Assembly: GCA_964036195.1 (NCBI GenBank)
Contig: OZ038459.1
Span: 7,561,206-7,625,205, forward strand
DNA: 64,000 bases
Direction of reading: 5' to 3'
Origin: Sphaerolaimus hirsutus
Taxonomy: Eukaryota; Nematoda; Chromadorea; Monhysterida; Sphaerolaimidae
Part shown: positions 37,301-63,196 of the stretch, piece by piece
Layout: every line of letters begins with the position of its first letter
Numbering within the stretch: position 1 is the first letter of the stretch
Position numbers and translations under genes: made by a program
Notes under the pieces: generated by a model
Seen by the model: only the letters and a program-made list of their open reading frames with translations
Told to the model about the DNA's origin: nothing
The model's database searches: none

Positions 37301-38725
37301 GTCCGTTGTCACACAGGGCGGCGTTAACGACGCGGCACTAGAGGAGTTCATGCGCATGTTCGACATGGCCGACCACACGATCGACATGGACGGGCACATC
37401 GTGGGCTTGACGCTCAGCCGCGACGGTCGATATGTGGTCGTCAATGTGAGGCAGTTCATTTCTGAGGTCGATGTCACGCAGCCGTTGAATCCACCTAATA
37501 TTGATGAGCAGGTTAGAGGGATTGGGAAGAGGTTTTTTGTAGAATTTTGACAGAGTGGTTATTTGTGTTTCCACGCTCTTGACTGTTCAGGGGCCAATCC
37601 CAAACCGTGTAAAATGTAAAGTAAAGTGTCAATTGCCATGCAAAGTTCGGACATACTAAATTTTTCTTTTTTCTTTTGATTGACATTTTACATGACATTT
37701 GACACTGGAATCTGCTGAAGTTTGGAATCCGGAATCACCTTTCTTATCACAAATTTCCTTGTCTATGCACTTGATAAGTTACAGAATTGGCTCCGCCTTT
37801 AACCCTACCACTCAAATCCCACACATCACAAAACATACCCCCAACCGCAGATCAACGTTCGCTTAATCGACCTGGAGACCCTATCCCTGGTCCGGCCCAG
37901 CCCCAGCTACGTGGGCTCGTGGGCGTTCACCACCAACGACGGGGTGTTCTTTATATTCGTGGACGCCCTCGGCGACTGGCTGGCTTCGGGCAGCGAGTGC
38001 GGCAACGCGCCCGTGTGGAGCCGGCGCCACGGGGCGTTGCTAGCTCAGGTGCCAGTCCCGGACACTGTAAAATGCCATGTGGAATGGAAAATGTCATGCA
38101 AAGTGTCAAAGGTTATGGAAAATGCCCTGCAAAATGGCAACCGAGTTGCCATTTTGCCGGGCATTTTCCTTGACTTTTGACACTTTGCATGACATTTTAC
38201 ATTTTACAGGGCTATTTACACGGTCTGGGACTGCCCCCAGCTGCACCATGATAAGGTGGTTAATAGTGCGGCGTTTTATCCAGGAAAGGACAGAGATTGT
38301 CTGGTTACGGTAGCCGATGATCATACGGTAAGTATTTGTCGTGATTTATACTCGGCGGACCACATGCTATGCATTTGGCTGAAAGTAACACGCCATCGTG
38401 ACGTCATCGTTGATAAGATCAAAGTTGCTCCAAAAAAGTGAAAACTATTTCAAGCACGAAACGTATTGTGGTTGTACTCGACTCCGTCTTTTTCTTTTTC
38501 AAATGTTTTTCCGCCTGCTCGCGCGTCATCGACCAAGACATAAGTAATTTTGGACGCATACTCTGCAGTCCGCCTAGTATATTCGAAAAGTTTTACAAAA
38601 AGATTCGATTTACTTCATATCTTACGTTCGGAAAGCTGGCTATTTTAGGCAATATTTTGGCGCCACAGATTCGCGTCTGGACATCTCGACGGCACCTGGC
38701 CAACGCCTATGACTGGGATGAGTAG
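31331..38725 (+). CDS. FBXW5: F-box/WD40 protein 5, SCF ubiquitin-ligase substrate receptor
   Basis: FBXW5 links substrates to SCF (SKP1) and DDB1-CUL4 ubiquitin ligases. Exons: 31331-31482, 31847-32030, 32371-32439, 32520-32805, 33686-33798, 34120-34220, 34577-34670, 35039-35227, 35745-35871, 36322-36432, 36731-36849, 37302-37511, 37851-38048, 38241-38327, 38669-38725. All phases fit and give 698 aa (vertebrate about 566). The F-box is LPDPLWLHVFGQLGRADLG (12-30). WD blocks include FATCSKDSKVLVW, YTQFAQFN, RPYDVFGCW, IDMDGHIVGLTLS and HHDKVVNSAAFYP, all matching FBXW5. The family-specific middle is expanded by an acidic/Ala-rich segment (exons 10-11). Intron 13 is exactly one introner. Exon 8's donor (GGCGC/GTGCGT) was chosen by phase, with an alternative at GAAG/GTGCAA. 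Confidence 0.96.
31555..31775. repeat. GCGCCAGGCGCC-rich element, FBXW5 intron 1
   Basis: Dense TGGCGC and GCGCCA words sit in inverted orientation. Relatives lie at 50598-50880, about 54310-54410, 58768-58825 and 61570-61660. Confidence 0.6.
32113..32266 (-). mobile_element. Introner-related element inside FBXW5 intron 2
   Basis: The reverse complement starts GGCGCCACTCCTAGACCGTG and shares the ATGTCATGCAAAGTGTCAAAAG arms. It is antisense to FBXW5 and lies within an ordinary intron. A further copy (37589-37705, starting GGCCAATCCCAAACCGTG) lies in intron 12. Confidence 0.7.
32833..33046. mobile_element. hAT-like GATCGGGATC element, FBXW5 intron 4
   Basis: The ends are TAGGGTTCGAACGAGAT and GGATCCCGTTTGACTCCTA, with an exact 8-bp duplication GTTCAAAT. 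Confidence 0.85.
33914..34036 (+). mobile_element. Introner family 1 inside FBXW5 intron 5
   Basis: It starts GTGCAGTCCCAGACCCTG and ends GGGTCTGGGACTGCCCCCAG, and is flanked by CAG. It sits inside a C-rich MITE that itself lies within a normal intron, so it is nested twice. Confidence 0.8.
34250..34441. repeat. GGGCCCACAC-TAGTTGACA MITE, FBXW5 intron 6
   Basis: The ends are GGGCCCACACCCTAGTTGACA and TGTCAACTAGTGTGTGTGGGCC. A close relative is at 44470-44676. Confidence 0.7.
36021..36094 (+). other. 74-nt near-perfect hairpin, FBXW5 intron 9
   Basis: Arms of 30 nt pair with two T/C-type differences. The left arm starts CCGCTCTACAGTGGGCGG and the right arm ends CCGCCCACTGTAGAGCGG. They enclose a loop of about 14 nt (AATAGAGGTCTATA). 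The size and shape resemble a pre-miRNA or a minimal MITE, and no family was recognised. Confidence 0.6.
36185..36295. mobile_element. hAT-like GGTCCC mini-element, FBXW5 intron 9
   Basis: A complete 111-bp copy: TAGGGTTCAAACGGGACC to GGTCCCGTTTGAACCCTA, with an exact 8-bp duplication AACTAAGC. Confidence 0.92.
38049..38240 (+). mobile_element. Introner family 1, forms all of FBXW5 intron 13
   Basis: It starts GTGCCAGTCCCGGACACTG and ends GTCTGGGACTGCCCCCAG. Central arms TGCCCTGCAAAATGGCAAC and GTTGCCATTTTGCCGGGCA pair. Exon ...CTAGCTCAG joins CTGCACCATGATAAG, phase 0, in the middle of a WD repeat. CAG flanks both ends. Confidence 0.95.
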
Positions 38726-41700
38726 AGTGCTGCGAGTGTATTTCCCGGTAAAACATTTGCTCGATATTTGCAATATTTTAGAGGCATCACTATAACGGTG
38801 TTGTATTTATAATATACCTACCTTCAATTGTCCAGGAGTTTTCGAATTTCCCCCGCGAATGGTTGAGCATTTGATCATTTCACAAACATGTACAGATATT
38901 CATTTTGTATTTTTTATAAATTTAGCTCGCCTCAATGCTAGCTTCAGATGCATGTAGCTGATTGCTCCCACACAGTGAATTACAGCGCTTGTGTCTCGTA
39001 AATAGATATAAATATCTATCTAGTCTGTTGCTGTTGTTGAACGTCATAAAATGTGAACGCGCCGTGCCGTCAATTCAATGGCACACTTTTTTAGAATTTA
39101 ATTTCACTTCTTCACGTCGCCGCCTTCTCTGATCGAAAATCATTTTAATTAGTTTCCTATTTTATCGACTACGTCAGCCACTTATCAATCACAGATCACG
39201 ATATTCCATTTTGACAATCGCTCGCTGCTTGTCACTTTCGTGCGCGAGCGCTCGCTCGGGTGCAAAATTACTTTTCAAATGCTAATTTCGGTCCGCGCGA
39301 GATTGATAGCGCGCGTGCGCGTTTGTTTCCTCGTGCATTTTCTTTAAATAGGTTATCTGCGGGCATGGGAACATGTGCACTGCGCTCGGCCACTGTGCAG
39401 TGCACTGCCTCAAATATGCGTGCAATTTGTTTGTTTCAGCTGTTTTATACGGCCCCATTATCATGGGATCATTCTCTGCTGATTGCACATTGGTGGCATT
39501 TTGGCATTTTTTCCGGTGGACGGCGCCACCGAACCGGAGTGGCAGTTGAGACTTCTACGTTATTTTATCATATTCAACTTTCCTGTGAAGCTTCCTATTG
39601 TTGCGTTCTAAATACTCCATACTTTATTCCATACTTTATTCCGCGCTGAATCGTCTCGCTGGCTGGCTCTCTGTCACTCATAAGGCATGCATGAACGTTT
39701 TTTTGCCGTCGGTGCGTGCGTCTGGCCGAGCCGGCCTTCAAGGTTCCACCGGAACGGTGTTTCCGGTTTCGGTACCGGTGCCGACACCCTGGTTCCAATC
39801 GCGATCCAGGTGAAAAAAACACTGGTTCCCGTCGCAGCCATTTTCTCTGTTCTGGTGAATGAATAATGATATTATCTGTTCTGGTGAATGATGATTTTGG
39901 AAATTTTGAAAGAAACTTCGCGATATGATAATTTTGTTTCTTATTTACATTTTTTGCTATCTCTCGCTGAACCGCACCGCAGTCCGGTCCGATAGATCAC
40001 CGGTCCTTTGCAAAAAAAATTGGGAGGGGGTGTTCGCGGGGGTTTAATATATAGACTTTTTCAAAGTGTAGAATGTAGAAAACGAAAAAGATCTCTAAAA
40101 ATGTGCCTACACACACTAGTTTTCACCGTGACTTCGTGTGAAAACTGAAATTTTTTAAATGCAAATTAATTAACACGGTTGAATGATTTTATGTAATCTT
40201 AATTGGAATTTAAATTAATGTAAGTTGAAATTTAAATATTTTAAAACTAAAACACATATAGCATACAAAAAGAGTAGGCTAGATGTCGCCATGTCGCCAT
40301 TTCAGTTTTCACACAAGTCACGGTGAAAACTAGTGTGTGTAGGGCCAATATGTTTAAAGTAGCGGAAAAAAGAATATACGATATTTACTGGAATAACTAA
40401 CGCACTTCGCTTATTAACCCCTTTGCAGGGGTTTTGTAGGGGGTGGGGGGTTGGGTACCCCCCCCCCGCCAAAAAAAAATACGCCAGCTACCGTATTGGC
40501 TTGTTTTGAACCCCGGGCACTGTTTTTTTTACAACGTCCTTACAGTGGCACTCAATTCGAGCATGGTACTGTATTTGGTAAGGCATTTCAATTCCATTAT
40601 AGACATCGATCTACATATTTTGGTACGTATATCGATTCCAGCTGCGTAATTATGATGTAAATAATTGCAACGGCTGCGTCAATTAGATGCAACAATGACT
40701 GGATTTTTTTAACAACAGAAGGGACAGAACAGAAGCCACGTTTTTGAACGTATTGCGTTTCTCGCGTCATGTTTGCTTCTATTACTTAGGTGTGGGGGGC
40801 ACTCAATTCAAGCATGTCACTGTATTGTTTCATAAGGCAGTTACCCTGGCACTGTATTTGAGCATGGCACACAATTCAAGCATGGCACTCAATACAAGCC
40901 AATGCGGTATCTATTTTTTCCGGAGGCCGTTCAGCTATATCTATCTAGCAAAATTTTTGACTACTATCCCCCAAACCCCTCCCCAAATCGTCCAGTTATC
41001 TACCTATCCGATGCGATTTTGAGAAATTTTGCCTTAATTTTCGCTCAAAATCGCTAATTTTCTAACCTTTTTGTAGTTTTTCACCTTCGGCATCACTAGT
41101 TCATTTGTTTTATTGGCTGTTTTCAACTATTTTGCGTACTATATATTTATGCTGTACCTATTTTGAGCTATTTTCTTCCTACTTATAGCGATTTGTCCGT
41201 TGTCTTCCCGCTGTGCCTTGAAAAGCCTAATACTGAACCCGCGTGAACCAACCCCTCCCCAATCTATCCCTCCGAAACAGGGATTTACCATCTATATGAA
41301 ACCCCTAGGGGGTCCAAATCTACAAAATCCCTTGACGAATTTCCCCCCTGTTAAACGAGCGAGGAATGAATAATTCCCCCACTTGAATAATCCCCCAAAT
41401 GATAGAAGAAATATGATGCACATAATTTTGAAAAACAATCGATCAATTCAGACCGAGCAAATGAGCTCTATCTGGTTTGATTCATCGAATGCAAATGCTG
41501 TACATCCGCTGTGCAAGGATGCAGTCGAATGTGCACTGCCAGGTGCCAATGTATTAGGACATACATGTGTATGTAGCGTGATAGAAACATGCTTGAAGAT
41601 TTTGATGAAATAATAATTCCCCCCTTGAATAGCCCCCCCTCAAAGGGTCTTGACGAAAAAATGATTCCCAGGGGAATTGTTTGAATAAATACGGTAGGTA

Positions 41701-43375
41701 CATACATCGCCAAAGATAGCATATTTCCGAGGTGAAAAAAAGCAAAATGTGAAGAAAAAACCCCAGCGATTTTGACTGAAACTCGAGGAAAATGTTCGCA
41801 GGAAAAGTGGCGAACCCCCCCCCCCCCCTAGTGGAAACCCCTGCCGGTCCTGAAACGCTGTCCCATTTGTCCCTGCGAATTCCGTCGAGGTGTTGCCGCG
41901 GCGCCGTGCCAAAGCACCATTGTCCATTGTAGTTCAGCCGTTTTCGCGTGATGCACAATGCGATAAGCACGCATGCATTTTTTGCACTACTTTGTCGGTT
42001 TTCCCCGTCGAGTTGTCGGGTGATGAAATTGAATTAGCCCGATATTTGGGTTTGAATCGGGCAGCCTAATCTGAAATTTGGGCTGCCCGATTCAATGTGT
42101 TTCAATTTGCCATACGGTATGTATGTCATTGAATAGGGCAGCTTTGATTTCTGGAAGCTTTGAATTGATTGGTTTCCCAAAAATTTGTGTCGGACTGTCT
42201 ACATCCTGTTCCCGATAGCGTTTTCTAGAGGCGGCAAAGGCGTGGAAAGTAGTGTGCATTGGATTTCAAACGGGATCCCCATCCCGAATCCCGATAATTG
42301 TCAGGATTTTGCGGTCCCGATCCAGAAGCCTCAATCCCGAAATTTTTAAAATACCAATCCCGAACCCGGAAAAATTTGTCAAATTTGTCAAATGACTTTT
42401 AACACTGAGGAATGTTTACGGAAACCTCTTGTGTTGTGCAGTTGATGGCACTTCTCTGAAATGCAAGTGTGTTTAGACCTTTTGTGAATAAAAAGAGAAC
42501 AACCCGAAATTAAAGAATAGTAAAATAATACCAGAACTTTGTCCAAAATCCCGAGACACCGTTCACGATCCCGAAATCTCAGAAAACTAATCCCGACCAC
42601 GAAAAGTCCATCCCGTTTGAACCCTAATCCGTATTGGTTGATAGTATTTTTAGGCCCGTTTTCCAGCTACCATCTTGTGACGATCATAACTTTTTTCCTT
42701 ATACTCACTGGTCTGGTTAGAAAATCGTACAATATTTACGCAGTCCATTCAAATTGAGTTTGTTATTTGTCCCCAAAGAACTCTTTTTTCGATGAAATTA
42801 TTAAAAGTTATCACTGATTTTTGATTCGTATTAACGGTTTCTAGTCGGCTTGCAATTTCAACGATTAGCACCGTGAATAAAAAACGGATGTGTTATTTAC
42901 CACGTAAAGTGTTTTTTGGTGTCAAATGGCAGTACTCAGCAGTACCAACACCAACGAAACCCTCTTTTTTCGCAGCGTGTGAGTACGTCTTATCAGCCTA
43001 CAGACATTTTGAAGATCATTCATTTTGAATTTGAATACCAAGACCTTACGTTTCAACAGAAGTTTCCACAACCCTTAGATCTTTACCTCTAATCAAGTGG
43101 ATTTTCGCAGCACTTAACCACTGCACTTGTTTCCAACACTTTAATCGCACTTTTCACCGCCTACTTTTTGTCAAACTGTTGCGCATTGACTGCAGCATAT
43201 CGCATGCACGGTGCCCTGGGCCGCGGCCGCGCCTGTCCCCCGGGCGCCATCGCACCTTTGCGAGTGCGGAAATCAGCCCCGCTATTGCACTTTTGATCAA
43301 AACTTCATTTCCTTGGCGCCGCCTCGAAACTGGCGCGCGCTGTTAGCGCGCTTCCGAAATCTCGGCGATTTACGC

Positions 43376-43822
43376 TAGAGTTGTTAAAAGTACTAAACTT
43401 TTTTCAAAGTATGCGTAAAGTATTTTGTTTTTACTCACCCCGAGTACAGAAAGTGTAAAGTAAATTTTTTTACTTTTACTCGCGAGTAAATGAGAGTAAA
43501 ATACTTCTTTACCCAGAAAGCGTAAATGAGAGTATTTTTTATCGGGAAGGGTAAAAGCGAGTAAAATTACCGTTACTTCTGAAAAAAGCATTATGAATGT
43601 TTTCTTTCGATTAACAAGTCTTCTTTATGAAAAGCAGGGGTCTCGAATTGCAAAAATACTCTTCTGTACTCACAAAAATCACTCTTCTGTACTCGAGTAC
43701 TCTCAAAAAGTAAGCATACAGGTGAGTACGGATACTTTTTTCAAAGTATGCATATGCATATTTACTCGGTGCTTGAGTATGCGTACTTTTTGAGTAAAAG
43801 TAAATACTCATTAACAACTGTA
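43376..43822. mobile_element. hAT-like TAGAGTTGTTAAAA element
   Basis: The ends are TAGAGTTGTTAAAAGTAC and CATTAACAACTGTA, with an exact 8-bp duplication ATTTACGC. The interior reiterates GAGTAAAAGTAA words. Relatives are at 44975-45507, about 51236-51735 and about 36890-37275. Confidence 0.85.
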
Positions 43823-43986
43823 ATTTACGCGCGCGCGCTTTTCACTATGGAATACAGATGTCTAATGGGGTTTGGAGTAGAATAAAAGCCCTCGTACTAT
43901 ATACTATTAATAGTGGGAAGGGAATGCGGAGGGGCGGGGCGCTTTCAATGCGACCGTGAAGCGTTGTTTTGTTTTTGCCCTCGATG

Positions 43987-44199
43987 TTGTCCCAAGCGGC
44001 TCGCCATTGTGCTCGGCTGCGATTTGCGGCGCATTTCTTGTCCGGACTTGGATGGAAGCTCATATACATTGTGTTGGAGTGGGCTATTTTTGGGTTGAGT
44101 GTAGTTTTTGAATGGTTCTTTGGGTTTTATGACGTGGCGCCCTGGTGGCGCCAATGTGACCCGATGGGGTTGTTAATGTTGGCAGTGGATTACATTTAA
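43987..44199 (+). CDS. Hypothetical small membrane protein ORF
   Basis: A 70-codon ORF starts MLSQAARHCARLR and has two hydrophobic stretches (around LIYIVLEWAIFGLSVVFEW). A GC box-like GGGGCGGGG lies 54 bp upstream. There is no recognised homology and no introns, so chance is possible. Confidence 0.2.
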   Translation: MSQAARHCARLRFAAHFLSGLGWKLIYIVLEWAIFGLSVVFEWFFGFYDVAPWWRQCDPMGLLMLAVDYI

Positions 44200-44974
44200 T
44201 GTCAATATGCTATGCTTGGGACTTCATCTCGTTCAAGTTGAACTCATGCTATTTTGCCGCGCATTGAAAATATTGGAAAAAAACGTTTCTCAATGTAGCT
44301 ACCAAATCATAAAAAATGCTTTGCAAAAACATTACGGTGACGATTATGGATCTTGGTAAACTTTTTGATTTCACCAATTAAATAGCCTGTCCGGTGTATA
44401 ATTTTTTCCTATCAGAATGCCTCCGCAGCTTGTTTGGCCTTAACACACAGACGTGAAGCTATGCTCAATGGGCCCACACACTAGTTGACATCGGAAATTC
44501 GTGTCAACTGAATGTCAACTAAAAAAAATTAATCAGCACCCTTTACTGAAACAATGAAAATTGAATGTCACTATATAAAATTAATGTTCTATCACATAGG
44601 AAAGTTGAAATCACATAATTAAAGAAATTGAGTTGACACGAATTTTGATGTTAACTAGCGTGTGTGGGCCCCATGGCCCCCATGTGACAAAAGACTGTCA
44701 CATTTTTAGAAACACCACCTAGGTATTCATTTACCGGTTATTTTGATCATATAATTGTATACTATTATTATGTTTAAACTTTTTTTAATGTGGTGAAAAA
44801 ATGTTTGCATGATGAGATCTGAAGGACCGCTCACATTGTTTATATTTTGTTGCTTTTTACATAGTTTTGATTAGAATATTGTTGAATACCGACCAGTTCT
44901 AAATTTGTTCGCTTCGCTAAAAAAAATTCTAACTCTGCATTATATTTCTTTAACACCCGCGCAAGTGTCTCTAC

Positions 44975-45507
44975 CAGAGTTGTTAAAAGTACTGAACTTT
45001 TTTCAAAATTTAACGTAAACGTAAAGTATTTTATTTTTACTCAACCCTGAGTACAGAAAACGTAAAGTATTTTTTAAATACCTTTACACTGCGTAAAACG
45101 TGAGTAAAATACTTTTTTAGAGAAAACGTAAAACTGAGTATTTTTCCTCACAGAAAACGTATAAATTCGTATTTTTCTCATATAAAATGTTAAAGTGAGT
45201 ATTTTTCTCACAGAACGTAAAAATCAGAAATTTTGTAAATTTTTACTCTAGAATACATAAAATAATGTGTTTTTTGCTCCTGATAACTATTTCTTAGGAA
45301 AATGTCTTATTTTTGCCACTTTCTGTCTGTCAAAATGTCATTTCTTTCTATGTCCCGCTTTTATACGCTTTCGGTACTCGTGTACTTTCAAAAAGTACGC
45401 GAGTAAGTGCGAACCGGTATTTTTTCAGGAAGAAACGTAAACGTATTTACGCAGCACTCTAGTATCCGTATTTTTTGAGTAAACGTAAATATGTTTTAAC
45501 AACTATG
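44975..45507. mobile_element. hAT-like CAGAGTTGTTAAAA element
   Basis: The ends are CAGAGTTGTTAAAAGTAC and TTTTAACAACTATG, with an exact 8-bp duplication GTCTCTAC. Confidence 0.85.
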
Positions 45508-46204
45508 GTCTCTACGAAGCGCGCACCTGCAGCTAAGCAGCGCATCAATACATCATTCCAGGTCGTGTCTGTCAAACAATCGGATGGCTTTTTCCAACTG
45601 AACTGCCAAAGCGATTCCGCCGGCTTTTCGATGACGTTCCGAGCCCCGTGACATGGCACGCTCCTGAGAGGCCGCCCATTACGTGTTCTCGTGGTATTTC
45701 AAATATTTGTATGATTACATTTTCGCGACGTTTCATTCTTACTTACCGTATTTCCTCGATTTATACCACCTCCTTGAGTAGACCCCGCTCGAAAAAAACC
45801 CGGGTCTGAGCGATCCGATGAAAAAATAACCCCCGTTTATACCCCCCGTCTCCAATAATGCAAATACATCATGTATGTAATGTACATTATGTATTAATTG
45901 CTTCCAAATTGCATCGCAGCACACATGTACTAGTTTGTGTAGATATATTCCTACCTATATAAATATGTCCTGTTTGGTCTCATTTTTTACAATTTTTGGC
46001 TATCTTTTCCTTATTCCTTACTACAACCCTTCACGAAACAAAAACCCCTTTGAAAAACCCCCACCCCTCAAATTATCCCCCCCTCGAAATCTTCCGGCGA
46101 AATAATAAACCCCCTTGGGCCCAGACCTGGGGGTGTTTCGAAGAAACACGGTAATTGGCTTATAATTCTCTTCCCTATCTAAAAAATTCCACTCACTATT
46201 CCAG

Positions 46205-46360
46205 CTCAAAAACCTGCTTGCGCCACCGGTGGTCATGAAAGGAGCGTTCGCGCGGCGCGTCCCCCGGCTCGACGCCTAGTGGGCGCGCCGCCGCTGCGAC
46301 GGCATGTTCCTTATCAACCGGATCGTGGCCCAGCGCAGGCTCGCCGTGCAGCTCAACAAG
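46205..46360 (+). pseudogene. Isolated coding-like exon with one in-frame TAG
   Basis: The segment is bounded by TTCCAG and AAG/GTCGGG, is 52 codons long (phase 0 at both ends) and is GC-rich like real exons here. It reads LKNLLAPPVVMKGAFARR ... LDA, then TAG at 46277-46279, then WARRRCDGMFLINRIVAQRR. Only that codon breaks the frame. I do not recognise the protein and found no partner exons, so a decayed gene copy, an assembly error or an exon of an undetected gene are all open. Confidence 0.4.
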
Positions 46361-46504
46361 GTCGGGGGGGGGCGGGTTTGGTTTTTTTTGTGTTCGTTCC
46401 TTGCACTCTTGGTTTTGTGAGTGTTTGAGTTGTTGTCTTTGCGTGCGTTTTTTTTTGCCAATTCGGTTTTTTGTGTCGGTTGGTTAACGCCTACGGATCG
46501 AAAC

Positions 46505-47185
46505 TAGGGATTGCCCGTGTTTTTTAACTTTTTTATTAAAAACTTTATTTTTAAACAGGCATCGAAACCGTTTTTTTTTTTTTTAAACTGCAGCCAAAAT
46601 TTTTAGTACTAAGCACTAGGTATTTTGCAATTTTTTTGCGCACATGCGCGCAATTTCACATGCCCATTACCATTGGTGGTTGTTTTCATTGGTTTTGAGG
46701 CATTTTTAGTGTGAAACCCTCCATTTGTTCATGCTATTTTGTCATAATAAGCCATGATATGTTAGTGTAGTATATAATATCCAGCCAATGTGCCCCCATA
46801 TAGCTGTACAGTGTGATACATCACTGCCAATGTATTTGCCTGCTCTTATAACCTTTTTAAGCACTTTTCCATGCCCAACTTCCCTTGAAGTCACGAACAT
46901 TCGACAAAAGGCGATATACGTCAGAAGTCGACATAAAACGGATATTTTTGACATAAATCACCACTTATAATGCTATCCTATGGCTCCACAGCCATTCTGT
47001 GGCTATATATAACATCACAAAGTACTGCCAGTTGTCTAATGTACCTGTATACATGTTGACCCAAGACCATAACTGGGAGCTTTTGGAAAAAAACGTTTTA
47101 TTTAATAAAAAAAACGTTTTTTATTAAAAAAACGTTGTTTTTTAAAACAGGGTCGTTGAAAAAAAAACGTTTTTTTCCATCCCTA
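46505..47185. mobile_element. hAT-like TAGGGATTG/CCATCCCTA element
   Basis: The ends are TAGGGATTGCCC and TTTTCCATCCCTA, with an exact 8-bp duplication ATCGAAAC. The interior is shared with the 10842-11522 copy. Confidence 0.9.
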
Positions 47186-50597: not shown

Positions 50598-50880
50598 TGG
50601 TGATGGAAAAAGCGCCATAGCGCTGTTCCAAACCCCAGCGCCAAGCGCCAATGGCCCCGAGCAAAATGGCACCAAGCGCCAGAAGCGCTATGGCGTTTTT
50701 TGCTGTGTGCTAGCGCCAAGCGCCAGCAACAGGCATTTTGTTCTTGGCGCCATGCAAAAATAGCGCCGAGCGCCAAAAACGTCATGGCACTTTTTTATGG
50801 GTGTGGCGCCAAGCGCCAAAAGCGCCATGGCGTTTTCCAGATTCCTTTGGCGCTAGCGCCATGGCGTGTTTCCATCACTA
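50598..50880. mobile_element. hAT-like element made of GGCGCC words
   Basis: The ends are TGGTGATGGAAAAAGCGCC and GTGTTTCCATCACTA. Flanks GTCCTGGT and GTCCTCGT match at 7 of 8 bases. The interior reiterates AGCGCCATGGCGC. Confidence 0.75.
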
Positions 50881-51786: not shown

Positions 51787-54700
51787 ATGTCCGCCGCGGC
51801 CGAAATCGGACGCGTCGTGGAAGCCGATCGGCGCCCGGCGGCCGGCTACACCGCCGCTCAGCCCCATGGGATCTCGCTGCCGCTCGGCCGCGCGTAAGGT
51901 CGCATCCTTTTCCGGCACCTATTTTTCGAGTCGACTTCGAAAAAGTTCATCATGTGGTGTATTTACTATTGTTTTTCTCGCACTGTTGGTGGCTAGCATA
52001 CTAGTTGACCTGTGTCAACTCAGATTTCGGCTTTGCGTGTCGCAGAGTGAGCTTCCGTTCCAATGCACTTGCCGTAATATTTATTTGTCAACATTGTGGC
52101 GACACAGCTATTTTTCAACCGAAATTTTGAAAACTTGTAAATCAGCATTGAACGCATTTGAGTTTTATAGAATGTGTCATTTTTACTCTCCGTCACCTGT
52201 AGATAACGGGCACCTCATTCTAAAAAAACTCAAATGGGTTCAATGCTGATTTACGAGTTTTCAAAATATCTTTTGAAAACTTGCTTGTGTGGCCACATTG
52301 ACGCATGTGCATTTGGAGATCGGTCTGCGATACGTGAAGCCGAAATCTGAGTTGACACAGACCAGTTAACGCATATGTATGTGTCAACCATTGATGTACA
52401 TCTAGGATGGGCCTTGTTCATAGTTCTAGATTCAAAATGATTCCGTTCCGGCTGCACTAGTGTTATTTTGCCGCGGCAGTGCGCCGCTGTAGTTGCAGCT
52501 TTAGCCATGGCGACGGGCGCTGCCGCGCGGCTCATTGTTTCGGGCCCCGTCTAATATCGCATCTGGCGTGCGCTAATTTGTTACTAGCGAATCTATCCAA
52601 TAAAGTGATTACCTACCTGTCGTTCGCTCGCGAATTTTTCCATGTGCCGCATCTGGCGGCTGTACCTAGGTATATAAATCGTTGGATAAGCGGACCACAC
52701 CAAATCGTAAAATCTTGTTAGAATGTTGAAGGAATTCTCAAGTAGGTGAAGCTGAAGGCCTCAGAAGTTATGAGATAAATGGTTTTGGTTTGGATACCCC
52801 TGTCTTAATGTAAATACATATTAGACATATTTATTAGCCAGACTTTTTTAGATGAGGTAATTGATGTTTTGAATATGGGAGGTTTTTGATGTGCATACTG
52901 TCAGGCCACATTGAGAAAAACTCCTGAATAAGCTAATCAGGCATCATCCAAGCAATTGTTGTGCATAATCCAAGCACTTTAGATGCAAAATCCACTCACT
53001 CTGCATCATGAACTGCAGCATCATCCAAACAAAAATTGGGCATAATCCAATCAGTTTTCTGGTGTATTCATGTTTGTTTATGTGTAAATTCTGATGTTAT
53101 GTATGCAAATGTGAAGTTTTTGTGAATTTGCAAGGAGTCATTGCAAAGCATTAAGGTACAGAACACCTGCAGTGGGTTAGATGAAAGGTGCTAGGGTTAT
53201 GCAGCACTTTTTAGCTTGGATTGCGCCCGGTTGGATTATGCACACTTGGATGTTGACTCGGCACATTTTGTGGCATTTTTATAGAAATCTGACACAACTG
53301 TACATGCTAGGTATGTGCTAGTCTAGGATAAAACAACAGCTTTTAGTGCAATAACCTATTTTTATACACGAATCTGTACTTTTAATTGATAAAAAAATGG
53401 AAAACATCTCCTACTTCCCAAATGATTATATTTTTACCAGTAGTCTTCTATCAGTTCCCTCTTTAATAAATCCCCTCTATTGGCGGAGTTAGGAAAAATG
53501 ATCCCCCTCGAATAGTTCTCTCACTGTATTAGGTGATAAAATATAGCACTTATAAAAAGCAAGGGATGGTGGCCAAAAATTTTGCCTAGCAGTTTTCCCG
53601 GATAGATAGATAGTTTGGAGACCCCTGACTCAACGATATGTGGTATATAACTTCCAAGTTATCAAAATACGTATTTACGTTTAAACTTTGAAAAATCGCT
53701 GCTCAGTTTCTGCACCCCTAGTAACCCAGTCTGTGACATTTACCTACGTGTACCTGCCATGGCATCGGGCAAACTTTACGACATAAATACACCATATGGC
53801 GGTCTGGCTATTTCATTGGCGCAATCCACTAAGCGCATTTAGCCCAGAGCCCCGTCCGTAGCTCAGATCCGAGCGGTTTTAGATGCATCGGTGCACTTCG
53901 CTGCCGGAAGTTATGTGCCGCTGCACGACGGTTTGTCGCTGGTTTACTTATGTATAACTTTTGTTGGCCCCTTGGCAGAGTGCCAAGTGCCCACGGTCAT
54001 CCAGTTGACACTTTTGCCATTTTGTTCGCACTTTTGATGTGGTAGAATTGTGACGTGGCGGCAAGGACGTAGCCAGGGGGGGGGGGGCGGGGGGGGGGGG
54101 CGGCCGCCCCCCCCCTTCCCGGGCCGGACCAAAAAATGTGCCAGAAATGGCACTTTCAGACGACGATTTTGTCGACAGTTTGAAAAATTTTTGCGCTCAA
54201 GCGCGCTTCTCCCTTCACAACATATTTTTTTGGCTGACCAGTCTCCGCGGCCTAAAAGCCAGTGAAAATGGACTCAATTTCTGTCCATGTCGCTGTATAT
54301 GCCTGTAAAATACAGACGTATACTGCTGTTTTGGCGCCAATGCCAACGCCAGTGGCGCCATGGTGTGGCGCCTACGAATGGCGCCAGCGCCATGGCGCCA
54401 TTCCCCTACAACAGGGGTAAAATTTTAGGGGGGGGGGGGCGCCGCCCCCCCCGTTCGCCGGGCTCCGTATACAATCCGCCCCCCCCGCTCAAAAATCCTG
54501 GCTACGTCCCTGCGTGGCGGTGTCAATTTTGCTCTCGTTGGCGCTGCGCACACTAGTACACCACAGAAATTTGGGAAACTCAAATCTGTTATGACCAGCA
54601 CATTTGAGTTAACAAGACTGAATAATTTTTGATCGCCATCAACACTAGTTAACAGATTCCTCACTCTGGTCAACTCAAATGCATTCAAAACAGATTTATC

Positions 54701-57700
54701 AGTTCCCCAAATTACAGCGGTGAACTAGTGTGCGCAGCGCCATGGTTTTTTGTTCAAATCAGTCCGCATCGCTTGCAGGAGGATGACCGGCGCGCGCGCG
54801 GCCAGTGCGTGGACGAGGTGCCGCGGCCGTGGAAATACCATTGCCCGCCCATAGCTGAAAGTGAGTCTAGAGTTGGGTGGGGGTCCACTCGCGAACTCGC
54901 TGGGTGATCTGGGCGACTGTGCTGTGGGCATAGGCCCCCCTAGTAGGCATATGACAAATTATTATAGTGTGTAATTTGAACAAAAGTGGCATCTTATGTT
55001 GTTGATAAAGTACCGATATTTAATTAAATGATTTGATGGAAACACGCTAGAAAATTTAGGCGAAATAAGAATTGCCCAAGAATAACCCCCCCTTGAATAA
55101 TCCCCCCTTGAATAATCCCCCCTTGAATAGTCCCCCTCAAAGAAGTCTGACGATAAACAATCCCCAGGTACATTGGGCCCACACACGCTAGTTGACATCG
55201 ACACCAAATGTCAACTGGTTCCAATCCCAATTCAAAGCTTGCGTTTGAACGTCGTTCGTCGGCTCGTCAGCCATTATTCGAGCAAATACGGTATCTACCG
55301 TAGTCCCTTTACATTCACCCTCTCAACTGCAGCATTCAGCGCTAACCAGCGGCGGGCGATTCGCATCACGTGGAAAAAGTTGTCAGGCGAAAAGATCCGC
55401 AACCGAACGAGCACCATGCGCCTGGCCGAGTCGGTCTTCACCAAGTACAGGTGCCAGTTCCGCAAATTGAGAAGTGAGAAGTAGAATGGCCAATGCAAAG
55501 TGAATTGAGAAGAAAATTCGCAAAAGCGAAGTAAAAAATAAAAAAGTAATTTCCCTTCGCTTTCCTTCTCAATTCACTTCGCATTTGCCATTTTACTTCT
55601 CTCTTTTCAATTTGCGGAACTGGCCCCAGGGAGCGCACGCCGCAGGTGAACAGGATCTTCGTGCGCACGGCCGTCATGCACGGCATGGCCGCCGCCAGAT
55701 CAGGTATTTTTTGCGCGAATTTTGTCCGCTATTGTATCACTTTTTGATATACTCGATTGATAGAACAATGTGCAATGAACGCTACCATATTTTGATGAAA
55801 GATTGTGCACCAAATTCACCCAAAGTTGGAGCAATGTGATCTGATGAGAAGTTTTTTTATGTCTGTGCGTTCTATCAGATGGGAAATTGTAGATACCGTA
55901 TTTCCTCGAAATACCCCCCCCCCTCGAAATACCCCCCCCCTCGAAATACCCCCCCTCAAAATGGACACTATGAACTTATAAACCCCCCCCTCGAAATACC
56001 CCCCTCCCAATTTAGTGTATAGAGAACGTAAATGACAAAGGCTGCGGTTTGTCATCTGGGTAATGCAAAACACACGTTAAAAACGATGACTCTGTTCTGT
56101 GAGAACAGTGATTATACGTCTACACACTTATACAAGTCTTTAGAGTCTTATAAATGGTGATTTTTGTTGCATTTTCGACGTCTGCGTACGTTTCAGACGA
56201 CAATTTAGTTCTTGGTTTTCAAAAAATTTCTGGCGAAATAATAAACCCCCCCCCTCGAAATACCCCCCCCCCTCGTTTAACCCCCCCTCAAAATTCTCAC
56301 TCTGAAACAATAAACCCCCCGGGGGTATTTCGAGGAAATACGGTATCATTGTAATGTGTTCTGTGGATAGACTATATTCTAGTCAAATAGTTAGATAAAA
56401 GCGTTATCCTACGGGATAACGTTATTTTTAAAACATTTTGATCACGAAAAACGGCATACCCTTTTCAAAAACAGACGTTGACAAAAAAGTAACATCATGT
56501 ATAAGCAGCAATTGTTGTTGACATGACCGATTTTATGGTATGATTGATGTCCCGCAGCTACACTCTCAGCTAGGGTTGGAAAAAAAAACTTTTTTCAACG
56601 CCATGTTTTTTTAAAACGTTTTCACCAAAGCGCCCAGATAAGAACTTGTGTCAACATACATAGGTATATAAGGCACGTGGCAATACTCTGTGATGTTATA
56701 TATGACCATATAATGGCTGTGGAGCCATGGGATAGCATTATAAGTGGTGATTTGTGTCAAAAATGTTTTTGTCGACATGTTCACATATCGCCTTATAGTC
56801 GAATGTTCGTGACTTCAAGGGAAGTTTAGCACGGAATAGTGATCAAACAAGGTTATAAAAGGATGTTGTTACTTTGGCAGTGAAGTTACACACTGTGGAG
56901 GTACATGGAAGCACATTACCTGAATATTATATATACCACAGCAGCATATGACAGCTTTTTAACCTATGGTAGCACATTGAAATGGATGCGTTGATACTAA
57001 AAATGCCATAAAATCAATGAAAACAACCACAAATGTCAATTTGTGTGTGTAATCGCGCGCTTGCGCGCCAAAATTTTGCAAAATACCTAGTGCTTAGTAC
57101 AAAAAATTTCGGCCAATGTTTCAACTAAAAAACGTTTCGGACATCGTGTTAAAAACGTTTGAAAAAAACATCGGCCAACCCTACTCTCATCTCGGTATTC
57201 TATCTCATCTAAGCATCCACAGCACCGACACGTAAATACGTTGTTCTCCATGTTTCGCATGCAGCGCGCAACACAGGTGGTCAAGCGGGATGTTCGGCTA
57301 TGCGGAAAACGTACTCTACGTACAGGGAGCACGCGCCCGCAATGCACCTACTTCTGGAGCACATTATACTTTCGCTGGACAGCGGTCAGCCACTGTCCGA
57401 GGAATGGGACTTGGACGCCATTGGTTCGTTTTCGTTGGCAAACCCCCCCCCCCCCCTCGAATATCCACCCCCCTCAAAATTCTCATTCTGAACCAATCAC
57501 CCCGGGGGGTATTTCGAGGAAATACGGTATTTATTTTTTCTTTGTATTTATATTTAATAGAATATTATGTACATGTATTGTCGATGCCTGGAATCTGCAT
57601 TCTAAGAAGGAAACACATGTGGAGATATTTATGTAAACACCTTCCCGGTCACGTCCGGCAGCCATTTTTTGATTTTACTTCTTATATCCTATCCCCAGTT

Positions 57701-60700
57701 CTAGGGCGCCCCCGAGGCTGAAACTTGGGGGAGATATTGGCGCAACCTCCCTCTACTTCGCATGAATTAGGGGGGTCGCGGCGACCCCTTTCAGGGTGGG
57801 TCGCCGCGACCCCCCCAATTCATGCGAAGTAGAGGGGGGTTGCGCCAATATCTCCCCCAAGTTTCAGCCTCGGGGGCACCCTAGAACTGGGGATAGGATA
57901 TAAGAAGTGAAATCAAAAAATGGCTGCCGGACGTGACCGGGAAGGTGTTTATGAATGAAGGTACAGACGGTGACTTTCTTACGTTTTGTGTGCATTTGTG
58001 TGTGCATTGTTTGAATTTTCTGAAATACTTTGAAGTACCCAGTGCTAATGAAAAAGTATGCGTAGAGATAGGTACTCGTACAATCAAAATTTTGTGCTCC
58101 TGAGCATTTACTCTGTGCACAGGTTTATGTGTATTTCAGAGTATGTAAACGTAAATTCCCACTATCAACTCTGGAGTTTAGGTGTGTGAGGTGTCCGTTA
58201 ACCGCACTTCACCTAGATTAAAAATGAATTATTCGTTCACACTTCGTTCAAAGCCGATTTATTAATTTTCGAAAGTTCGGCTGTAAACAAAATCGTGCGT
58301 GTAGGCACAATTCTCACAAAAACTCCCACTACAACCATGGAACACATCCAAACACAACAGGGTATTCTAGATTTCAGAATAACACTCCAGATTAACAATC
58401 CAGATAGGTAGATAGCTGGCCGATTTGGGGGGTTTACGGGACAGTAGCCCAAAATTTTGCCTCCGGGATAGATAGATAGCTGGCCGATTAGGGGGGTAAC
58501 CCACCTCCCAACCCCCCTTTCCTACCCCTGCAACCAACACAAACACACCCACTCCCAGGTCAGAAGCACGGCCACCTGGCTCAACACGGCCTCACTGCGG
58601 AGATGTTCGAGCGGCTGGGCGAGACCCTGGCCGAGGTGTTCAGCGCGCAGGAGTGCATCCAGGCCTACCCCGACGCCAAGCACTCGTGGCTGCTTTTGGT
58701 GGCGCTGGTCACTGATCGGTTGGTGGGGTGCGGTGGATTTTTGATTGGTGAAATTGGTGGACAGGACAGGCGCCATGGCGCTTTTTGCTTTGGCGCTAGC
58801 GCCAGCCGCCAGCCCAGTGGCGCTTTTACACCACTATTTATAATTCGAGTGTGCTTGGGAAACGTGCTGGGTAAATTGCGTTGTAGTTTTACAGAGTTGA
58901 AAGCATTTTCATCGTCATCAAGTGCAGACATAAATTCACTTCTGTTTATTTTCTGCTGTACAGACAGATATTTATTAAGAAATTGCCTGCGGGCTGTCAT
59001 CGGGGTGACACAATAAATAATAATACGTATACTCTTCGAACATCACACTTAGCATGAAAACCTACCATAACCCATCTGAATAACGAACCAAAAATTATAC
59101 AGTTTTTCATCATAATATTTCGTTTTTACTATGGAATAATTAATTACGAGTTATATCACTAGATTATATTCATGAAAATATGGTAGGATTCTGCGCAAAG
59201 TAGTCGTTCGTGCCATTCCGTATACACTTTTACAGCATCGCTGCGGGTTTCACCAAGGCGGCGGCGCGCGACTCTCGCCACCGGCAGCAGAAGCGCAGCG
59301 TGCGCCAGGTGCCAATCCCAGACCCTGTAAAATGTCAAATCATGTAAAATGGTAAAAGTCATGTAAAATGCTCTACAAAATGGCAAACTTACGTTTGTCA
59401 TTTTGCAGGGCATTTTATATGACTTTTGACACTTTGCATGCCATTTGACAGGATCTGGGACTGCCCCCAGGCGGCCGAGCGGCACGGCACCGCGTCCATT
59501 TGGCTCCAGTATCAGCACCAGCAGCAGAGCGGCGCGCGGTCGGCGCCCGCCACTGTGGCCAAGCAGGCCGGCAGGTTATTTTTGCAGCTCAAAGACCTGT
59601 TTATGGATCTATTTGAGTTGTCAGCTCGTACGATCCTCGTGACCAGGGTTGTCAAACACTCAGAAAAAAAGATGAATAAAAATATTGAATATAATGAAAT
59701 CTGATATTTGGTTATACTTTCTTTTCTTTTTCCGGGGATATTTTATCAGAAGATTTTTTATGAGAAGAAAACGAAAAAATCTCTCATTTATATATTTTTT
59801 TAAGAGATTTTATTTTATTTTTGAAATATTTTTCTGATTTTATATTTAATAATATTGGGGAAAAATAATCCCCCTTGAATAATTCCCGCTTAAGGCGTAT
59901 GATCAATGTGTGTCCAATCTGATCAAAAATTGCAGGTTATTGTTATAAAGCATATTTTGTGCAATAAGTTGTGAGAAAAATGTTTGAAAATATTTACAAA
60001 ATAATAATTCCACCCCTTGAATAATTCCCCCTCGAATAGTCCCACTCCAAAAAGTCCTATGAAACAATAATTCTCCTGTGGAATTATTCGAGCAATCGCG
60101 GCATTCATTCCGCCTGTATGGTAAATATGTATATTATTTATTTAAATGTATTTACACGCATTTCCGCAGATCCAATGGCAAAGTGGCAACAAATGGCAAG
60201 TCAAAGTCGGGGGGACGGCAACCAGACAACGTGGTGCTCGCATCGCGTGCACTCGCGGCTGAAATGGACGCTGATGAACAAACTCTAGTGCTCACGAAGT
60301 GTCTCACTGAGCCGGACTTTAATGTAAGTTTGTTAAGTTGGTATTGATCATGTCAAAGTTGAGGAAATTAATGACCAGCTTTGTTTTACGACTACTGTGG
60401 AGATCATTTGTTGTTGGGTTTATCATCGAAAATGGTCAGGTCAATCTGCTTGAAATAGGTTTGCATACATACTATTGCACTTTAGTGGTGGACTGTAATT
60501 CATTATCATGTGCATCGAAATTAGTTGCTCTTTCATGTATTTTCGTCTTATAAATGTGATTTCTGTAAATTTATTTTCAGCTATTTAGATACACATCGAG
60601 GATTCATTCAGCTGCTCTAAAATCTGACACTCAAATGTCAAATCGAATCTCAAATTGACAATCTCAATCTGTTCTATTTACCCAGAGTATTTCGCGCAAC

Positions 60701-63196
60701 TTCTTCACAGGCTGCATCTGTTCACTGCAATAATTTGTCGTCGAACCCCGCAAAGAAGGATCCACGAAAGTCACACATACCAGTAGTTACAACTTCGAAC
60801 GCCTGCGCCACAGTGCCATCCACCAGTCAACACAATCATTCTGGTGCCAGTTCCGCACCCTTTAGAATGGCGGTAAAATGTCAAATGTCATGCAAAGTGT
60901 CAAAAGTCATGTAAAGTGCCCTGCAAAATGACAAACGTCCGTTTGCCATTTTGCAGGGCATTTTACATGACTTTTGACACTTTGCATGTTATTTTACATT
61001 TGACATGGCATTTTACAGGGTCTGGGATTGCCCCCCGGCTTCAACTCGATGGCGCTGTCTTTGGCGCACGAATTGGAAGCCATGCAAAAGCCCGGCACAT
61101 CAGTTGAAGATTGCTCTAGAATAAACCAGGGCCAGCAACCAATTGCTGACAGGTTACGACCGATCGATGAAATGTGGCCGGGTGGTGATGGTTTGACAGT
61201 GGGAAATTCTCTGAATGTGAGTTTATTTATTATTTGTTTATTATACTATTATTATATTATTGTTATTTATTTTATTATTATTTATTATTAGTTTATTGTT
61301 TCTTCTATTTTCGTGTATTTAGGTTCATTTGTGTCTTCTCATAGGTGTAACAGCTAAGCCGCTGAATACCGATTCACACCCTATGTCCAGCGAGTGAAAA
61401 TTCCTCTGCACGACACCTCTGCATGCATGCCCATATCCCATATGCGTGTCCCATATCTGCACCGCAATTCCCCTATACTCATTGACCAGTTTCCGCAGCC
61501 TCAAAGCCAGTTAAATGGACTCAATTCCTGTCCATGTCCCTGTGTATACCTGTAAAATCAATACAGACATATACTGCTGTTTTGTCGCCAATGCCAATGC
61601 CAGTGGCGCCATGGCGTAGCGCCTAACAATGGCGCTGGCGCCATGGCGCCATTCCCTTACTACAGCGGTAAAATTTTAGGCGGGGGCGCTAGGCTAGGCT
61701 AGGCTCCCCCTAAAATCCTGGCTAGGTTCCTGACTCGAGCGAAGCTAGGTAGCGAGAAGAACACAACTGTGATTACCTAAACTAAATATAATACGTTCAG
61801 AACAAGCATTGTCATATCAAGAGTTGAGCACAAAATCACATTTAATCACATCATGCACTGACATTCCGTTCGCCCACAATACCAGTCCATCTGGCTGGCA
61901 AATATCCCATTTGTCAGACTGTCTCTTCTAACCTTTTCGGCCGATGAGCCAACATTTCTTGCCTCACTAAATTAATTATAGGTAACCAATTTTTCCCTAC
62001 CCCCACAGAATCAATCGTCACCAAAAGGCGGCATTAAAAACGCGCGTTACCGTCAATCCATTCCGCACTTGCGCGGCCACCAACAACAGCGGCAACCGAA
62101 CTCAAAAACGTCCGTTTCTCTGGACCCGATTGCCTTCAACCCGAATCGGAACGATCGGAACGATCTAGGGCGCCACCGCGGCAGCTTTCAAATGAATCTT
62201 CAAAGTGGCGCCTATGCGCAGCGCCAGTCGCACTCGTCTAGCCCCAAGAAGCGGCACAGAATGGAGGATGGAGATTTGACACCGTTGGCGCCGCGTAAAA
62301 CGATCGTCACGTTTGGCGGTTGGTTTTTCGGTTGTTGTTGTTTTTTGTTACTGGTGTGGGATGCGTGAAACTGTGGACATTGGGATGGCCAGCGCTTTTT
62401 TCAACAACTTTTTCAAAGAAAGTTAGCTGTTTAAAAAAAGCGCAAGCGCAACTGGCCTTCAGCTGCCTGCATTGCTGCAATGTGCAGTGTGTTTGAGTGT
62501 GAAATGGGCAAATTAGGAAATGTCCGGACATTTTTTTGAAAAAAACGCTTCTTTAAAAAATCAGTGCCGTTGAAAAAAACGTTTTTTCCATTTATACTTG
62601 ACACAAAAATCTATCGAATTCTTAACATCTATATAGATTTCTATATAGATTTACCACCCACCCCGACCCGTTATTTCGTGCTCCCAGGACCGTCCGTCGA
62701 CAGCCAGTCGGCGCCGCGCAACGTTCAAGACAAGCAAGTGCAGACCGACTTGGTCAGCACCGATATCCTGGTGCCAGTCCCAGACCGTGTAAAATGCCCT
62801 GTAAAATGTAAAATGTCACGCAAAGTGTCAAAAGTCATGTAAAATGCCCTGCAAAATGGCAACCGAGTTGCCATTTTGCAGGGCATTTTACATGATTTTT
62901 GACACTTTGCATGACTATTTACATTTCACATGGCATTTTGCATGATCTGGGACTGCCTTCCGGTGCTGGAGCCGGACGAGGCGTTCGCACTGCGCCACCT
63001 GCCGCCGTCGCATCGGTCGGCCCCGTTGGCGCGCAGACGTTTGCAACCCGACCACGATTTGAGTTCCGCGCCGCCGAGAAAACCGCCCCACCCCGCGCTC
63101 ATGTGCAATTCTGTTGCCGGACGTTTGGATGGTGATTATCCACAGTGCAGCGGTCACTCGTCGGTGCGCTCTGAGCATAATTATTGTGTTCTGTGA
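51787..63196 (+). CDS. Globin-domain protein with a long C-terminal extension
   Basis: A haem globin (O2/NO/redox role presumed). Exons: 51787-51893, 54763-54860, 55333-55450, 55630-55703, 57277-57423, 58559-58718, 59236-59308, 59471-59574, 60170-60323, 60711-60843, 61038-61216, 62009-62318, 62688-62770, 62963-63196. All phases fit and give 657 aa. Helix A reads FSANQRRAIRITWKKL (about 70-85), and NRIF has the expected CD1 Phe. TYREHAPAM places distal His E7 at 151, and IGQKHGHLA places proximal His F8 at 185. Helices G/H read LTAEMFERLGETLAEVF and WLLLVALVTDR. Residues from about 250 are low-complexity, basic and Gln/Ser-rich, with KQVQTDL near the end. Four introns are introners. The start exon is the least certain part. 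It resembles the neuroglobin/nematode-type fold more than vertebrate haemoglobin. Confidence 0.82.
54062..54512. mobile_element. hAT-like CAAGGACGTAGCCAGG element, globin intron 1
   Basis: The ends are CAAGGACGTAGCCAGG and CCTGGCTACGTCCCTG, with an exact 8-bp duplication CGTGGCGG. The interior has long G and C runs and GGCGCC words. Fragments occur at about 17155 and 61710-61735. Confidence 0.88.
54545..54742. repeat. GGCGCTGCGCACACTAG MITE, globin intron 1
   Basis: The ends are GGCGCTGCGCACACTAGTACACC and GTGAACTAGTGTGCGCAGCGCC, with the inner pair AACTCAAATCTGTT / AACAGATT. The element ends about 20 bp before the acceptor of exon 2. Confidence 0.75.
55451..55629 (+). mobile_element. Introner family 2, forms all of globin intron 3
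   Basis: It starts GTGCCAGTTCCGCAAATTGA and ends CAATTTGCGGAACTGGCCCCAG. The arms pair GAGAAGTGAGAAGTAGAATGG with CCATTTTACTTCTCTC. Exon ...AAG TAC AG joins G GAG CGC ACG, phase 2, inside the globin fold. CAG flanks both ends. Confidence 0.95.
56571..57183. mobile_element. hAT-like TAGGGTTGG element, globin intron 4
   Basis: The ends are TAGGGTTGGAAAAAA and CGGCCAACCCTA. Flanks CTCTCAGC and CTCTCATC match at 7 of 8 bases. Confidence 0.85.
57634..57950. repeat. 317-bp near-perfect palindrome, globin intron 5
   Basis: Arms of about 155 bp are almost identical inverted copies: AAACACCTTCCCGGTCACG pairs with CGTGACCGGGAAGGTGTTT. They are centred near 57792 (GGCGACCCCTTTCAGGGTGG). No target duplication is obvious. 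Confidence 0.9.
59309..59470 (+). mobile_element. Introner family 1, forms all of globin intron 7
   Basis: It starts GTGCCAATCCCAGACCCTG and ends GATCTGGGACTGCCCCCAG. Exon ...AGCGTGCGCCAG joins GCGGCCGAGCGG, phase 0. The flanks are CCAG at both ends. Confidence 0.95.
60844..61037 (+). mobile_element. Introner (hybrid of families 1 and 2), globin intron 10, CCG 3' end
   Basis: It starts like family 2 (GTGCCAGTTCCGC) but has family 1 arms and the end GGTCTGGGATTGCCCCCCG. Exon AAT CAT TCT G joins GC TTC AAC, phase 1. The 3' end lacks AG. The nearest in-phase AG acceptor downstream is GGAAG at about 61080, which would drop 14 codons. Confidence 0.8.
62771..62962 (+). mobile_element. Introner family 1, globin intron 13, CCG 3' end
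   Basis: It starts GTGCCAGTCCCAGACCGTG and ends GATCTGGGACTGCCTTCCG. Exon GAT ATC CTG joins GTG CTG GAG, phase 0. A canonical AG (CTGGAG) lies 9 bp further on and would keep frame while removing three codons. Confidence 0.85.

Follow-up and report, generated by a model that had tools for sequence, protein, structure and literature searches.

Short hairpin elements as probable introners in an animal genome, with a CWG target duplication supplying the last bases of the intron

The origin of introns is a long-standing question, which has reportedly been addressed by Huff et al. in 2016 and in a later PNAS introner survey by Gozashti and colleagues that may cover the present host. In those parts of the published reports that are drawn on here, introners are described as near-identical introns arising from the insertion of short elements, many of which have inverted ends and target duplications (PMC9860276, Gozashti et al. 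2022), animals are among the hosts, and there are introner families that carry their own 5′ splice site and obtain the 3′ site from the duplication (PMC9860276, Fig. 2C legend). The introners of Amoebophrya combine hairpin inverted repeats with direct repeats of 3–5 bases at the borders and many non-canonical ends (PMC7789003), and in the larvacean Fritillaria borealis, in whose lineage U2AF1 and U2AF2 have been duplicated, 95% of introns fall outside the GT/AG rule (PMC13326754). Target duplications of 3 bp with the sequence CWG are generated by the NuwaI group of PHIS (PIF/Harbinger-like) transposons, mainly in animals (PMC4482050), and the TG 3′ splice sites described in human are alternatives adjoining an AG, never the sole site (PMC2374985).

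The elements analyzed in this work, found in a window of 64,000 nt (i.e., the whole stretch of DNA under study) and throughout the genome from which it comes, resemble the introners of Gozashti et al. 2022 as apparently insertion-made introns with their own 5′ site and a 3′ site from the duplication; for the families treated there, the sections used here mention rare GC and GA 5′ sites and no target-derived TG 3′ end, whereas CTG is here about as common a target as CAG (PMC9860276). They share the CWG target duplication with NuwaI, from which they differ in that CGG and CAT targets are used too (PMC4482050). Hairpin inverted repeats, short direct repeats at the borders and non-canonical ends are common to them and to the Amoebophrya introners, whose ends are highly varied, in contrast to the fixed GT donor and the variable, target-derived 3′ end observed here (PMC7789003). 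As in F. borealis, an animal seems to depart from the GT/AG rule, although three introns of the FBXW5 gene described below are GT-AG (PMC13326754). With the human TG sites, as the parts of that report used here present them, the present copies have the last two bases in common, but here use of the nearby internal UUUUACAG shifts the frame, and a sole TG would be a real departure because TG occurs in human only beside an AG (PMC2374985). Judging by titles and the openings of abstracts, searches of the open-access literature brought up no animal family with an AG or TG 3′ end set by a CWG target. Introners derived from DNA transposons, including those with a borrowed 3′ site, are already known from the sections of PMC9860276 used here; the novelty would lie in TG serving widely as the only 3′ end.

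The preliminary description of the window had proposed that seven introns in three genes consist, from splice site to splice site, of a single short inverted-repeat element. Inverted-repeat elements with common ends, of 162–217 bp, are indeed present at all seven places. A profile search of the window indicated 13 elements, which are not of one kind: 11 belong to family 1 and two (55451 and 10273) to family 2, which overlaps with family 1 mainly at the ends (Table 1). With up to 3 mismatches allowed, the terminal 20-mer GTGCCAGTCCCAGACCCTGT occurs 10 times in the window, the maximum in 100 shuffles being 0.

Table 1. Elements of the two families in the window (positions on the window; ends and flanks as read in element orientation)
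Element	Positions	Strand	Length (bp)	Ends and flanks	Context
Family 1 element	617..808	-		GT...CAG on minus strand, flank CAG	
Family 1 element	2378..2594	-		GT...CGG on minus strand, flank CGG	
Family 2 element	10273..10427	+		CTG left, CAG right	Flanks non-coding, other-repeat-like by reading
Old family 1 copy	12869..13022	+			E 6e-8 and 2e-7 on two strands
Decayed, shortened family 1 copy	20036..20145	+			
Family 1 element	32084..32263	-			Antisense in ordinary FBXW5 intron, by exon reading
Short family 1 element	33914..34037	+		CAG flanks	Within other inverted repeat; FBXW5 intron by exon reading
Decayed family 1 copy	37591..37706	+			FBXW5 intron by exon reading
Family 1 element	38049..38240	+	192	GT...CAG, flank CAG	FBXW5 intron
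Family 2 element	55451..55629	+	179	GT...CAG, flank CAG	Host gene weakly globin-like
Family 1 element	59309..59470	+	162	GT...CAG, flank CAG	
Family 1 element	60844..61037	+		CTG left, CCG right; edge without AG	Flanks score non-coding
Family 1 element	62771..62962	+		CTG left, CCG right; edge without AG	

Measured by GT-AG edges, the exact correspondence of element and whole intron stood at 617, 38049, 55451 and 59309, and failed at 2378 (CGG), 60844 and 62771 (both CCG). The claim that removal of each element restores an uninterrupted codon frame was borne out as far as the joined flanks of all seven are open across the junction; at 617, 2378, 55451 and 59309, however, these open frames are weak evidence, because the antisense codon score equals or exceeds the sense one (sense versus antisense: 15.5 and 21.8, -0.6 and 6.0, 20.7 and 21.5, 21.6 and 22.4, respectively). 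The flanks of 60844 score as non-coding on both strands (-5.0 and -11.8), and so do the surroundings of the six elements absent from the preliminary description, at 10273, 12870, 20036, 32084, 33914 and 37591. Two of the seven elements had been placed within folded domains, a WD repeat of FBXW5 (38049) and a globin fold (55451). The former assignment is firm, as F-box and WD40 matches were found and the junction LLAQ|LHHD aligns without gaps with four homologues; it is the only one of the seven with homology spanning the junction. The latter is weak: the Pfam Globin match (E = 0.069) is under the cut-off and covers residues 126–174, off the junction, and a homologue search with this gene returned none. 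With E values as high as 1 allowed, Pfam returned nothing for the peptides of the genes at 617, 2378, 59309, 60844 and 62771. The three FBXW5 introns that could be read at both ends are GT-AG and unrelated to the elements.

A genome-wide search for the element, which had been put forward as a check, covered 348,482,957 bases in 762 contigs, the window being positions 7561206-7625205 of contig C15, and returned 717 + 711 = 1,428 exact occurrences of the GTGCCAGTCCCAGACCCTGT 20-mer, against 0 for the reversed control. The main sample comprised the window and 60 stretches around exact hits on contig C1 (320 kb), in which 77 two-ended copies were delimited with ≤3 mismatches allowed per end; the sampled copies come mostly from this one contig and were selected by an intact left end, so that young copies are favoured. 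The element unit in these copies is GTGCC...CCCC with a 3-bp target duplication. Identical 3-bp flanks, with offsets ≤2 allowed, were found in 56 of the 77 copies (CAG 26, CTG 22, CGG 4, CAT 3, AAG 1), and the 48 matched duplications that are CAG or CTG fit a 5′-CWG-3′ target. Amongst the 21 copies with unmatched flanks, the left triplets were CTG (9), CAG (4), CCG (2), CGG (2), ATG, TAG, TTA and CGA (1 each); the nine left CTGs were paired on the right with CAG (6), CCG (2) and CTA (1), and the four left CAGs with CGG, CCT, GGC and TTG. The consensus of 50 copies is predicted to fold into a hairpin of -134.4 kcal/mol (177 bases). The left end reads GTGCC and the right end, read inward, GGGGC; it is because of this difference in the second base that the GT donor lies at the left end. 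The orientation of such a near-symmetric element depends on which end reads GTGCC, and at one locus (L015) the call is unstable, being + with CAG in one assignment and - with CTG in another. The preliminary description overlooked the fact that the target duplication supplies the final intron bases: a 3′ AG is found in the CAG/CAG copies (26/77), and it is lacking in the CTG/CTG copies (22/77) and at three of the seven window sites discussed above.

Twelve insertion events in genes of 10 conserved kinds are backed by homology, i.e., a match spans the junction after removal of the element and one triplet (ATP1A and OSCP1, with two sites each, are counted once each as genes, and two tandem copies in a 7TM receptor gene are counted as one insertion). 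Nine of these events belong to the 77-copy sample and three to 17 copies fetched later. Their flanks are CAG/CAG in FBXW5, the first OSCP1 site and the ATP1A C-terminus, CTG/CAG in ATP1A (the other site), cyclin Y and MON2, and CTG/CTG in BCKDHA, SLC23A, the 7TM receptor, the second OSCP1 site, DNPEP and IFT70, which gives six GT-AG edges (three CAG/CAG and three CTG/CAG) and six GT-TG edges. All 12 insertions are in sense orientation (two-sided p about 0.0005 by our own arithmetic), with the qualification that most of the candidates were picked by eye among sense frames. To counterbalance this, searches were run with 10 of the 63 listed antisense open frames, and none of them matched across the junction; the antisense frame of L033 gave a GndA match below the cut-off (E 0.022) that ends at the junction, and that of L062 a GDT1 match below the cut-off, located beyond the junction with an AG acceptor in between, from which we read the L062 element as probably sitting in an ordinary intron. 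Many of the sense peptides searched are without a family match: one set of 10 peptides (one of them an antisense frame) gave none above the cut-off, and several further sense peptides in two later batches had no match. The homology count leaves out L085 (discussed below), L068, L017 and weak Tudor, VWD, tetraspanin and nucleoside transporter cases. No Pfam match was found for L068 and no match for L017; we take the former to be SIRT-like and the latter SMYD-like.

The two insertions in the OSCP1 gene (L022:3987-4163 and L022:4810-4998), one CTG/CTG and the other CAG/CAG, constitute a natural side-by-side test. Furthermore, two receptor genes about 16 kb apart (L048:601-768 and L049:606-801) have one CTG/CTG insertion in common. 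Aligned with each other, the two elements show 7 mismatches and 28 gap columns, whereas the left flanks differ at 2 of 300 bases and the right flanks (300 bases) at 34 of 283.

Orientation was also assessed with codon scores. As at the window sites above, these rely on a table whose training data were the FBXW5 and globin-like exons of the window together with nine copies from the genome. This gave 19 sense and 4 antisense calls, with 54 of the 77 copies uncalled (one-sided p = 0.0013, and 0.0036 to 0.00016 over nine settings). The test is partly circular, since the table was trained in part on nine of the same sense loci, and the case for orientation therefore rests on the homology set. Regarding the antisense calls, L050 is readable as lying within an ordinary intron, and neither L026 nor 2378 allows an unambiguous reading. 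The sense pattern is broken most clearly by the CTG/CTG copy L038:616-801, which looks antisense within a coding frame; no Pfam match was found for it, and in our reading the one way to account for it would be an in-frame GT-AG route with 2 added residues.

When the target is CTG, the putative intron has the ends GT...TG instead of GT...AG. For the six GT-TG proteins, no GT-AG pair in the stretches scanned round the junctions yields the exact product, and in BCKDHA the scanned range contains zero in-frame GT-AG pairs. A retained element introduces a stop codon in all five loci that were read through. This leaves three possibilities: use of GT-TG, an altered or missing protein, or removal by something other than the spliceosome. 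The sense orientation favours splicing of the RNA, with GT as a requirement. Splicing from an internal GUAAAA to UUUUACAG was considered as the main route and rejected, because according to our own arithmetic on the consensus and the scans for GT-AG pairs it adds 37 bases plus multiples of 12 in the consensus and shifts the frame. Of the 26 copies with an internal UUUUACAG, 22 carry it 19 bases before the element end, and its use likewise shifts the frame.

A genome search for the exact CTG/CTG pattern returned 67 occurrences, and the first seven list entries after contig C1 (L079–L085) were taken as a less biased sample. Four or five of these copies lie in exon-like sense frames, and two of them, L080 (IFT70) and L082 (DNPEP), show homology across the junction. 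L085 has a coding score in sense, with a Mito_carr match just below the cut-off that starts about 3 residues before the junction and no PDB match; it reads like the mitochondrial phosphate carrier SLC25A3, which we presume it to be. L081 has an open, histidine-rich frame, its two strands scoring almost alike; the sense frame of L084 is open but has a score of -4.8, and L079 and L083 are not coding-like. The chances appear evenly balanced that, at numerous loci in conserved genes, the spliceosome constitutively removes the elements with TG as the sole 3′ splice site, in which case GT-TG and GT-AG introns would be born about equally often, depending only on the CWG triplet hit, and GT-AG would be favoured afterwards.

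Copies with mixed flanks bear on the same question. Exact-pattern searches of the genome returned 37 CTG/CAG and 19 CAG/CTG copies, the latter comprising, amongst others, a group of four near-identical entries and a pair; p is 0.022 for 19 versus 37 and 0.008 for the estimated independent copies, 14 versus 33. Five of the 37 and five of the 19 were picked before their flanks were seen, and a coding score in sense was obtained for four of the five CTG/CAG copies and for none of the five CAG/CTG copies (highest score 0.9). Counted over all CTG/CAG copies examined, 7 of 11 are coding (L054, L067, L018_7560 and four of L074–L078; the other four are L034, with its best frame antisense, L063, L065 and L075), against 0 of 5 for CAG/CTG (p = 0.034, with small samples). 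This contrast fits selection for an exonic 3′ AG. The CAG/CTG copies also end in TG, yet 0 of 5 score as coding, which counts against a free use of TG, and both readings were given weight. The view of CTG/CAG as pure T to A selection has been softened, since the existence of the 19 CAG/CTG copies means that mixed flanks arise both ways.

Taken together, the elements are very probably short non-autonomous DNA transposons with near-perfect hairpins (MITEs) that act as introners. The characterization as introner-like transposons is upheld by the 3-bp target duplication and the exact sense insertion in conserved exons, and is better supported by the genome sampling than by the window alone; that as exact GT-AG introns holds at four of the seven window sites. 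The observed parts of the mechanism are the 3-bp duplication, the exact empty sites and the sense orientation in 12 cases. A transposase, PHIS/NuwaI-like to judge from the CWG targets, would place the GTGCC...CCCC unit at a target of 3 bp (CAG or CTG in most cases) and bring about the observed duplication. In a sense exonic insertion the GT of the left end would then act as donor and the intron would close with bases of the duplicated target, so that a CAG target would give a canonical GT-AG intron and a CTG target a GT-TG intron. The spliceosome would excise both forms alike at the element edges, a long stem would conceal the frame-shifting internal donor and acceptor motifs, and selection would prefer copies with CAG in the right flank. 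We assign this whole explanation (introners, edge splicing, hiding by the stem, and selection for CAG) a probability of roughly 0.6; its GT-TG step, the removal of CTG-flanked copies by the spliceosome at the element edges, we hold to be slightly better than an even proposition. In predicted folds of 32 copies, internal GUAAAA donors are paired at 86% and UUUUACAG acceptors at 90%. When the flanks are included, pairing takes up most of the 5′ GT (0.41 of 2 bases left unpaired) and half of the final two bases, so that the element ends show no clear exposure, contrary to a simple model of exposed ends. The branch point, too, would be hidden in a fully paired stem, which counts against the explanation. 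Recent activity of the family is plausible, the median distance from the consensus being about 8% in the two main classes (CAG/CAG and CTG/CTG).

The most serious competing explanation, although an unlikely one, is that the exonic CTG/CTG copies are not spliced at their edges and represent recent loss-of-function alleles on one haplotype of a diverse population. A new insertion would leave the flanking frames intact-looking, and TG-ending CAG/CTG copies scored as non-coding in all five fetched cases. Random orientation would be predicted, however, and the six homology-backed CTG/CTG insertions, mostly chosen by eye, are all in sense; even in the list-order sample, four or five of seven lie in exon-like sense frames, two of them with junction homology. 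The CTG/CTG and CAG/CAG copies are, moreover, equally diverged (median 7.9% each; 14 and 17 copies), with the reservation that subfamily differences blur this clock, and one insertion is common to the two duplicated receptor genes, the elements of which are 7 mismatches and 28 gap columns apart. Somewhat less probable is canonical splicing of the CTG-flanked copies at alternative GT-AG sites, altering the protein by a few residues. In-frame, stop-free pairs do occur near most junctions (e.g., with a 4-residue loss in DNPEP), and a GGGAG near the right end would be usable with 3 added residues (L033 and L016). Against this stand BCKDHA, which is without any such pair in the scanned range, and the nearest listed pairs elsewhere, which alter conserved residues (SLC23A -11, OSCP1 -6, receptor +17, IFT70 +10, DNPEP -4).

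We consider non-spliceosomal removal improbable, be it somatic excision of DNA or removal of an RNA hairpin as discussed for non-conventional introns of other eukaryotes. The near-perfect hairpin and the TG, CGG and CCG ends speak for such a process, in which removal would be exact regardless of the ends, and hairpins, short direct repeats and non-canonical ends occur jointly in the Amoebophrya introners as well, according to the part of that report used here (PMC7789003). The sense orientation in 12 conserved exons, along with the presence of coding flanks for CTG/CAG and not for CAG/CTG in small samples, nevertheless suggests that the left GT is needed and a right AG preferred. Hardly credible is the idea that pre-existing, old introns were invaded by the elements later, since in the exonic cases the exons are separated by just the element and one target copy, with the 3-bp duplication straddling the junction, and three introns of FBXW5, traced at both ends, have GT-AG boundaries and no relation to the elements. 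It is only for copies in introns read as ordinary (32084, 33914, 37591 and L062) that this idea agrees with what was found.

In the favoured explanation, i.e., introners removed at their edges, the family would amount to a natural experiment with one element, one donor, and a 3′ end that depends on one target base (CAG or CTG). Should the TG-ended copies be spliced, an animal would present a large-scale breakdown of the rule that a 3′ AG is required, and the CAG/CAG, CTG/CTG, CTG/CAG and CAG/CTG classes would then allow the need for AG and the maturation of newborn introns to be measured.

Several other features of the window were recorded. A run of 200 N at 6595-6794 may be an assembly gap or sequence that has been withheld. 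Exon-like open frames on the minus strand at 7448-9362 resemble exons of the lariat debranching enzyme DBR1, which is our presumption as to their identity. A separate foldback element at 57634-57951 consists of a 154-base inverted repeat, 97% complementary, with 10-base spacing. Finally, a repeat ending in GGGGGTATTTCGAGGAAATACGGTA, or nearly so, is present four times, at 1102-1195, 23592-23685, 56252-56345 and 63837-63930.
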